From positions 1-64,000 of the forward strand of contig JANWWI010000005.1 of assembly GCA_025056355.1 (NCBI GenBank): 64,000 nucleotides of DNA, given 5' to 3'. Of this stretch, positions 60,301 through 64,000 are shown one piece after another. Position numbers and translations under genes: made by a program. Source of the DNA: Casimicrobiaceae bacterium. Its GTDB lineage: Bacteria; Pseudomonadota; Gammaproteobacteria; Burkholderiales; Casimicrobiaceae. Below the pieces are notes generated by a model. That model saw only the letters and a list, made by a program, of their open reading frames with translations, did no database searches and was not told where the DNA came from. Position 1 is the first letter of the stretch; each line of letters starts with the position of its first letter.

Positions 60301-60394
60301 GGTGGGTCGCCCCGCATGTGGATGCCGTGAACCTGGTCAGGTGCGGAAGCAAGCAGCCATAGCGGTTGAAGCAGTGCCGGGGGAACGGCTCACC
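60301..60394 (+). ncRNA. ffs: 4.5S (signal recognition particle) RNA
   Basis: The bacterial small SRP RNA, recognised by its apical core: ATGCCGTGAACCTGGTCAGG, then GCGGAAGCAAGCAGCC. The ends GGTGGG (60301) and GGCTCACC (to 60394) pair to close the long hairpin. The RNA binds Ffh to target membrane proteins. Its place just upstream of dnaX is the usual one in proteobacteria. Confidence 0.95.
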
Positions 60395-60432
60395 ACTTTT
60401 CTTCTGCCCAGCCCCGCGTCGCGGCACGCCTC

Positions 60433-62449: not shown

Positions 62450-63037
62450 GTGACCCCGCTTGCCCTGCGCAACCTGACGGAGGCCCTCAAAGCGCTGCCG
62501 GGGATTGGCCCACGCGCAGCGCAACGGATCGCCTTCGAACTGGTTGAACGGCGTCGCGAGGCCGCCGCCTCGCTCGCCCGCGCAATCGATGCCGCGCTTG
62601 AAAAACTCGGCCGCTGTGAGCGATGCAACACGCTCTCGGAGACCCCCATCTGTCCGCTCTGCGCCTCGCCGAGACGCGATGCCTCCCTGCTCTGTGTGGT
62701 CGAGACACCGGCCGATCAGATGATGATCGAAGCCTGCGGCGCCTACCAGGGCCTCTACTATGTGCTCATGGGCCGCATCTCCCCGCTCGATGGCCTTGGC
62801 CCCGATGAACTGCACCTCGACCGGCTCGTCGAGCGCGCCTGCGACGGCCAGGTCCGCGAGGTCATCCTGGCAACGAACTTCACCACCGAAGGCGAGGTCA
62901 CTGCGCACGTGATCGGTGAGCTGCTCAGCGGACGCGGGCTCGCCGTCACTCGGCTTGCCCGCGGCATTCCGATCGGCTCGGAGCTTGAGTACGTCGATCC
63001 GGCCACTGTCGCCCAGGCGGTGCGGGAGCGGCGCTAG
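62450..63037 (+). CDS. recR: Recombination mediator RecR
   Basis: A 195-residue protein from the GTG at 62450 (203 residues from a TTG at 62426; the GTG at 62447 is also possible). It has a helix-hairpin-helix [17 protein letters not shown], a zinc finger [16 protein letters not shown] and a TOPRIM domain ([12 protein letters not shown] and the later ATNFTTEGE). It acts with RecO and RecF to load RecA at gaps. The last four bases CTAG provide stop codons for both recR and the convergent ksgA. Confidence 0.94.
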
Positions 63038-64000
63038 CCGGGCGTGAGTGCATCGGCAAGCGCCACGAAATCGGCACACGAAAGCGTCTCGGCGCGTGCC
63101 TCCGGATCAAGGCCAAGCGCCTCGATCTGTGCCGGCGACAGATGGGCCGCGAGCGCCTTTCGGATCATCTTGCGGCGCTGGGTGAAGGCAAGCATCACCA
63201 CCTCGGCAAAGCGCGCCTCATCGCGCGGACGAAGACGCAGGGGTCCGAGCGGCTCCAAGCGCACCACCGAGGAGTCCACTTTCGGAGCAGGCCGGAAGGC
63301 TCCCGGGGGCACCTCGAACAAGCGCTCGACCCGGAAACGGTATTGCAGCATCACCGAAAGCCGGCCTCGCGCAGGCTCGCCCTCACGAGCCACGATTCGA
63401 TCGACCACCTCTTTTTGCAACATGAAGATCATGTCGCGTATGAGCGGCTCGAACCGGCTCAGGTGAAAAAGGATCGGGGTCGAGATGTTGTAGGGCAGAT
63501 TGCCAACCACGCGCAGCATCGGTGAAGCTATGGCCGCATCCGCTTGCGGCCCAGCTCCGGCCGGCAGCCTGTGAGCGCAGGCAGTCCGCCCCCTCACCCG
63601 GCCCTTCGGGCCACCCTCTCCCGACGGGAGAGGGTCAACACCTCCTGCCTCTGCCCTTGGAAAAGGATCACGCCGCCCTTCCTCTCGCTCTGCCGGGGGG
63701 GCAACCCCTCCTGCCTCCGCCCTTGGAAAACGATCAAGCCGCCTTGCCTTAGAAAGAGCGTCAAGCCGTTCCTCCCCTGCCTCTGCGAGAGGGTCAACCC
63801 CTCCTGCCTCTGCCCTTGGAAAAGGATCACGCCGCCCTTCCTCTCGCTCTGCGGGGGGGTCAACCCCTCCTGCCTCCGCCCTTGCGAGGGGAACAAGCCG
63901 TTCCCCCTCTCCCTCCGGGAGAGGGTCGGGGTGAGGGCACGCCCACACCGAGTCATGGTGAGCGCGCTGCCACACCTTCGCCCATCGCAGGAAGTCGACG
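63034..64000 (-). CDS. ksgA: 16S rRNA dimethyladenosine transferase KsgA, partial, with in-frame repeat insertion
   Basis: The C-terminal part is Ksg[20 protein letters not shown] (the N-L-P-Y motif), [27 protein letters not shown] (in parts), [16 protein letters not shown] and [13 protein letters not shown]. The N-terminal part lies beyond the window, and at 64000 the frame reads [13 protein letters not shown]. Between these, roughly 63545-63945, is about 130 codons of repeats. They read as [16 protein letters not shown] and four RAEAGGV units and have no homology to KsgA. The reading frame stays open throughout, so the enzyme may carry a long disordered loop before its active site. It dimethylates A1518/A1519 of 16S rRNA. 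Confidence 0.85.
63588..63940. repeat. Palindromic repeat element inside ksgA
   Basis: This 350-bp segment begins with CCCCCTCACCC, a GGCCC/GGGCC hairpin and ACCCTCTCCC-GA-CGGGAGAGGGT. It ends with CCCTCTCCC-TC-CGGGAGAGGGTC and GGGGTGAGGG, an inverted version of the beginning. In the middle an 84-bp block is present twice almost exactly (63641-63724 and 63800-63884), each with TGCCTCTGCCCTTGGAAAAG. The hairpin pattern is related to the REP-like units at 26-301 and 27350-27524. Confidence 0.8.

Follow-up and report, generated by a model that had tools for sequence, protein, structure and literature searches.

A BoxC-ended palindromic insert lying in-frame within ksgA of a Casimicrobiaceae bacterium points to DUF559 as a candidate mobility nuclease

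How can a conserved enzyme gene carry several hundred nucleotides of palindromic repeats and still be open from end to end, and where do such repeats come from? The question is raised by the ribosomal RNA methylase gene ksgA of a Casimicrobiaceae bacterium, which lies at the end of the 64,000-nucleotide stretch analysed here (the window), corresponding to positions 1–64000 of a 93-kb contig (C126) in a draft genome that is 98% complete and comprises 2.62 Mb in 170 contigs (G000, the home genome). The gene is on the minus strand, with its stop at window position 63034 and its start codon at contig position 64293, 293 bases outside the window. An initial annotation had described an in-frame palindromic insertion between the SAM-binding half and the NLPY motif. 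Our analysis bears this out: a single 557-aa open frame, without stops, spans both PF00398 pieces of ksgA in a profile search of the genome, and with the flanking sequence included the frame is open throughout. The C-terminal part of the 419-aa protein, from a conserved strand of 10 residues to the stop codon, occupies 63034–63537 (minus strand; upper edge approximate, placed by alignment to 43 relatives) and matches PF00398 positions 101–260 at 63049–63516 with 120.5 bits, while the N-terminal half takes up 63991–64000 of the window and continues on the same strand to contig position 64293, with PF00398 positions 2–92 at contig positions 63985–64275. Between them lies an expanded loop (63538–63990, minus strand, edges approximate), all in the host frame, which runs from 'DVL' (DVL or DAL in relatives) to 'VVG' and has 170 residues, compared with 18–36 in the 43 aligned relatives and 22 in the closest of them, G009, a difference of 148 residues. 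The loop is made up of a palindrome-bounded insert of 347 nt (63591–63937, minus strand, delimited by repeat analysis), to which non-palindromic edges add about 53 nt at either end; the insert is absent from 43 out of the 43 aligned relatives. At ksgA alone, the open frame proves little by itself and is no proof of selection for openness, because the host frame also stays open in 26% of dinucleotide shuffles of the insert; the whole insert is open in only two of the six frames. Elsewhere in the window, a bacterial small SRP RNA (RF00169, 61.9 bits) is found at 60301–60397 on the plus strand, just upstream of dnaX.

What, then, are the repeats? Exact hairpin cores of the form CCCTCTCCC-N-GGGAGAGGG occur twice in the window, both times inside the ksgA insert, and 0 times in 100 shuffles of the window. 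The right terminal motif (63905–63938, core 63905–63925) reads CCCTCTCCC-TCC-GGGAGAGGG-TCG-GGGTGAGGG-C and is identical at 32 of its 34 bases to TMECO no. 20 of Escherichia coli K-12 (PMC4666352, Table 1), the two mismatches being loop bases; it has the BoxC/PIT/TM layout of CCCTCNCCC, loop, GGGNGAGGG, loop, GGGTGAGGG. The left terminal hairpin (63591–63635), also of BoxC/TM type, forms an inverted pair with it and differs in the second loop, which has a GGCCCTTCGGGCC stem. The interior (63636–63904) consists of diverged units of about 33 nt (11 codons) at a spacing of 33 or 93 nt, a family of direct repeats (D2) with seven copies of 62–100% identity, the last of which overlaps the right hairpin. 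The insert has 43 blast matches in its own genome, itself counted, its left end has 26 further matches, and the home genome holds 42 exact BoxC hairpin cores versus 0 for a reversed control pattern. By their sequence, the ends of the insert belong to the BoxC, PIT or 'triplex motif' repeat first found in E. coli. BoxC was already known in the 1990s, and no means by which it spreads has been described.

According to the published description of this motif, strain MG1655 carries 23 copies, always intergenic, and the repeat has been reported in more than 260 genomes, often as inverted pairs of two types; mobility genes are described there as never found near the K-12 sites, and the mechanism and evolutionary origin are left unanswered (Holder et al. 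2015, PMC4666352). The ksgA insert shares the terminal sequence, the three-block layout, the inverted pairing of two motifs and the presence of many copies per genome. However, whereas the MG1655 copies are intergenic in that description, those of the home genome also lie within coding genes, in-frame and linked to DUF559: besides ksgA and an HODM-like gene, in-frame BoxC arrays are present in aceF, lpd and fmt, those of aceF and lpd following the lipoyl domain. The likeness to the palindromic elements of Rickettsia proposed in the initial annotation is functional only. In both cases palindromic repeats lie in-frame in protein genes and are tolerated by enzymes, a trait that the ksgA and HODM-like inserts display, but the likeness to the BoxC inserts is one of description, no nuclease is mentioned in the relevant parts of the Rickettsia accounts (PMC6649704, PMC5656822), and we rejected a Rickettsia element as the identity of the insert because its ends match BoxC.

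BoxC sequence seems well suited to being read through. Five of six frames are free of stops in the type B motifs and in four translated motifs of the home genome, and three in type A motifs with a TTA loop; the encoded peptides, such as PLPxGEG and PSPxGRG, suit linkers. We also observed an aconitase-like frame (L118, C83:22888-23009) that stops 14 codons past a BoxC array, with an acylphosphatase-like gene coming next; both genes were named by eye. The aconitase-like gene was possibly truncated by recombination at the array, and its end so soon after the array means that not every copy is harmless; at least one may have harmed a gene.

What the initial annotation, drawn from the letters of the window alone, could not show is that palindromes of this kind also surround DUF559 in the gene next door and in many others elsewhere. 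The HODM-like gene (PF11927) that adjoins ksgA is interrupted in-frame by a DUF559 domain (PF04480) lying between palindromes of this kind. DUF559 is absent from the ksgA insert, which is therefore tied to it through its ends and its neighbour gene only. Copies with and without the domain can occupy the same site: at least 6 of the 12 same-genus HODM loops listed have palindrome-coded peptides without DUF559 at that loop, as judged by eye, and the lipB site of G015, a member of the same genus, holds a palindrome-like insert only. Both lipB matches of G015 (L187, L195) carry a palindrome-like peptide of their own, and the loop concerned is the same in the two.

DUF559 has the marks of a nuclease. 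In 39 sequences the invariant residues include E14, D47, E58, D60, H64 and D71. A PDB profile search returned 3hrl (E 1.2e-40) and the homing endonuclease I-Bth0305I (3r3p, E 3.2e-4), and the same two structures were again the top matches of the predicted fold (3r3p E 9.9e-4); matches of the profile to toxin B chains (E 0.036 and above) were treated as noise. I-Bth0305I is described as a member of the EDxHD homing family (PMC3943268). From fold and invariants we infer that DUF559 is an EDxHD/Vsr-like nuclease, its E, D, H and D presumably being those of the family name. It resembles I-Bth0305I in nuclease fold and in its acidic and histidine invariants, but I-Bth0305I is intron-encoded and multi-domain, whereas DUF559 consists of the catalytic domain alone, either within the reading frame of its host or as a separate gene next to BoxC. 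It is also conserved as a protein: in the two host genes tested, DnaG and MnmG, the DUF559 inserts have a dN of 0.06–0.16 and a dS of 1.4 or more (partly saturated) and are under purifying selection; the row for the free-standing domains of G004 and G006 was left out, being out of register.

The two components are found together well beyond the home genome. With a BoxC core defined after the sequences had been seen and one mismatch allowed, a core lay within 400 bp of DUF559 in 23 out of 30 loci of the class, versus 4 of 58 windows further out in these loci, 2 of 30 ksgA loci and none of 600 shuffles. The same held for 17 of the 26 placed DUF559 loci of relatives (9 had none and 3 of the 29 were not placed), and for 58 out of 80 named DUF559 loci from many phyla versus 3 of 144 windows further out, these 80 being the best of 577 and therefore biased to close relatives of the query alignment. 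No core was found within 400 bp in 22 of the 80 named and 7 of the 30 class loci. At the level of genomes, cores are present in 112 of 369 members of the class, namely in 60 of the 84 with strong DUF559 (E to about 1e-15, a threshold set in this analysis) and in 52 of the 285 others (Fisher p 2.6e-19), and co-occurrence persisted when labels were shuffled within 41 families comprising 113 genomes (p 5e-5). G184 has two DUF559 genes and only two cores, which lie on either side of one of these genes. E. coli itself offers a case, BoxC no. 9 of MG1655 (1,351,204-1,351,239), which lies between fabI and the DUF559 gene ycjD. DNA matching ycjD was found in 3365 of 5426 genomes; two ycjD-negative E. 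coli strains do not serve as an empty site for comparison, since efflux genes come after sapF in them. Our search of the open-access literature returned no work linking DUF559 with BoxC or with in-frame insertion. The DUF559 query matched 3 of 50,697 phage records, and phages are therefore not an evident carrier.

Association does not by itself make DUF559 the agent of spread. BoxC could move by another route, either through Y1/RAYT transposases acting in trans or through template switching at hairpins, with DUF559 as cargo or as a BoxC binder and the ksgA insert as a coding BoxC array. Several observations favour this: BoxC-rich genomes are found among the 52 with cores but without strong DUF559 (78 cores in G321, 69 in G148 and 56 in G104), mobility genes were never found near the K-12 sites in the account cited above (PMC4666352), and Y1 transposases are themselves associated with BoxC, with an odds ratio of 3.1 overall and 4.5 in DUF559-negative genomes. 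The Y1 association is weaker than that of DUF559 but, since it holds in DUF559-negative genomes too, it speaks against an exclusive role of the latter. Nevertheless, we consider another route rather unlikely. The 98% complete draft of the home genome contains 0 matches to Y1_Tnp (PF01797), and mobilisation by RAYT/Y1 was rejected there despite the weak association across the class; among Y1-negative genomes, BoxC still occurs in 13 of 20 with DUF559 versus 7 of 103 without; and K-12 does have one BoxC copy, no. 9, between a DUF559 gene, ycjD, and fabI.

The position of DUF559 within other genes provides a second line of evidence. In 30 relatives, DUF559 was found in 17 genomes with 29 matches, 11 of which are in-frame in host genes: DnaG (3), LipB (3), MnmG (2), HyuB (2) and HODM (1). 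Across the 369 class genomes, open frames longer than 300 aa contain 17 of the 111 best-scoring DUF559 rows (one of them the home gene), whereas the roughly 150 matches listed for ParE in the same genomes include none in such a frame (longest, 166 aa). For Y1_Tnp, seven of the matches listed exceed 300 aa, so that long frames alone are not specific to DUF559, but none of the seven is over 378 aa, against 15 DUF559 rows above 380 aa. Pfam identified a host in 12 of the 16 such long-frame class loci examined, namely DNA methylases, HsdM, HsdS, an aminotransferase, MetH and a CoA-transferase; L163 and L172 (locus numbers of this analysis) have HsdR-like hosts by eye only, and no host was seen in the scan of L165 and L175. 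Among the 80 named loci, 15 have a host: MetG (2), HsdM (3), Mfd, ValS or a related synthetase (2), Mur ligase (2), a BioA-looking class III aminotransferase, a DUF3418 helicase, an Eco57I methylase, a PAD-type deiminase and MetH. The MetH locus (L246) was unscanned and is counted as the same gene as L169, and the deiminase (L300) may be a fusion rather than an insert because DUF559 stands at the N-terminus of the frame. The type I restriction genes hsdM and hsdS recur as hosts of in-frame DUF559 in unrelated families (L166, L173, L176, L249, L256, L278, L167, L170, L171).

By Pfam, host domains lie on both sides of DUF559 in eight proteins (L093, L095, L169, L244, L247, L254, L257, L260), and in six more (L089, L102, L096, L110, L164, L268) one family is matched in two stretches, taken as one per side. 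By comparison, for the free-standing domains, 15 of 29 listed named loci were checked by their neighbours, and the same family was found on both sides in 0 of the 15; eight are clearly intergenic, lying between two different families, four have one side identified and three have none. In a tree of 139 DUF559 domains, which is poorly resolved, the in-frame label needs 14 changes, at least six of which are forced by supported branches, and related domains are found in unrelated genes, such as the HODM of G000 with the HyuB of G004 (100/93) and a DNA methylase with an aminotransferase. The Rickettsiales isolate AM-377-L16 carries DUF559 in-frame in mfd and in the gene for a class I tRNA synthetase (L254, L260), and a link between these elements and the origin of the coding palindromes of Rickettsia is possible.

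It would also be conceivable that the insert is transcribed but kept out of KsgA, by RNA splicing, by protein splicing or by ribosomes bypassing the hairpins, as bypassing over palindromic elements is reported, in the account of them, for mitochondria of Magnusiomyces (PMC6649704). We regard this as very improbable. Ten element-bearing loci, ksgA included, yielded no intron family at Rfam gathering scores and only SRP RNA, the Pfam scans of hosts yielded no intein or Hint family at the thresholds used, and group I or II introns and inteins were rejected on these grounds. Moreover, these routes would need neither frames that stay open nor a nuclease encoded in-frame with its host, and both are observed.

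As a host, KsgA seems to have kept its core. All residues invariant over 40 aligned KsgA rows are present, although this holds by construction, since the row set includes this KsgA. Compared with G009, dN is 0.21 before and 0.22 after the insert and dS is 1.27 and 0.94 (dN/dS about 0.16 and about 0.23, averaged over a long branch). In the AlphaFold2 model, the core has a pLDDT mostly of 94–98, falling below 50 at residues 128–169 and 185–255, and Foldseek ranks KsgA structures first (E. coli 1qyr, TMt 0.93). This outcome fits a predicted disordered loop that is tolerated while the core is kept, and lends support to the initial annotation's suggestion that the site is a plausibly tolerant loop. 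We infer that the insert is translated and that KsgA activity is retained. The accompanying term 'essential-type' may overstate the case, as ksgA is dispensable in E. coli. That ksgA is decaying, or that the insert is an artefact of a 170-contig draft whose interior repeats are easily misassembled, is very improbable: no stop or frameshift occurs over 419 codons and the invariant residues are present, dN is well below dS on either side of the insert (though averaged over a long branch), the contig measures 93 kb and similar inserts recur in other genes and species, and no second full ksgA or pseudogene was found by the PF00398 profile search of the genome, its only third match being partial (36 bits, profile positions 16–84).

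We therefore favor, with reasonable but incomplete confidence, the explanation that the ksgA insert is a nuclease-less BoxC-ended element, non-autonomous or decayed, read in-frame as a tolerated, disordered loop rich in proline, glycine and charged residues, and that the fuller form of its family carries the DUF559 nuclease. DUF559 is likely the mobility nuclease of the family and would both cut the DNA and move the element. In such a mechanism, DUF559 would nick or cut the target, after which the element would be copied in by repair that uses an element-bearing template or hairpin ends. Gene-breaking insertions would mostly be lost, and those seen in genes would consequently be in-frame, in loops or linkers, where BoxC sequence would help survival because its type B and home-genome motifs are stop-free in five of six frames. 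In the fuller element, DUF559 would often sit inside the host protein as one of its domains; the HODM-like gene beside ksgA is an example. No clean target duplication was visible by eye in ksgA, HODM or lipB compared with same-genus relatives, or at two E. coli BoxC pairs (hrpB-mrcB and alx-sstT), and several differences at the insertion sites compared resemble the products of recombination from one hairpin to another. Strains of E. coli vary in the BoxC pair at hrpB-mrcB, which is absent in C7 and E66, where the flanking bases also differ, and partly deleted in DEC9B and RM9467-C1 (L324, L326-L328, L331).

A broader hypothesis, which we put forward tentatively and at slightly less than even confidence, is that BoxC and DUF559 constitute one mobile family across bacterial phyla, in which the nuclease is translated inside the host protein, the hairpins serve both as DNA ends and as peptide linkers, and solo copies, among them the ksgA insert and the intergenic E. 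coli BoxC, are non-autonomous remains. By entering tolerant loops in-frame, such a family would have no need of splicing to spread. REP/RAYT systems likewise have palindromes that flank the gene of a small DNA enzyme, a Y1 transposase, with many solo copies elsewhere. They are alike in this arrangement but differ in the enzyme, which is DUF559 for BoxC, in a home genome without a Y1 match. The nearest analogue is the ShiLan domain, described as inserted in host genes whose frame stays stop-free, with no splicing domain found and with an endonuclease gene thought to home; however, its HNH nuclease lies in a frame other than that of the host, its hosts are phage methylases, and the relevant parts of its description mention no BoxC ends (PMC11855218).

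Taken together, BoxC repeats that flank a small nuclease gene, often in-frame inside other genes, suggest an unrecognised kind of mobile DNA. BoxC/PIT had no known agent of spread, and the adjoining conserved nuclease-like gene gives a candidate; as such a gene lies beside BoxC in E. coli too, in the form of ycjD, the question can be put to the test in a laboratory strain. Copies lying in-frame within dnaG, metG, valS, mfd and lipB point to a nuclease-bearing element that lives in conserved genes with no sign of splicing, and in-frame BoxC/DUF559 copies might give rise to new loops and inserted domains in proteins. If true, the reading of BoxC and DUF559 as one family would settle the origin of BoxC.
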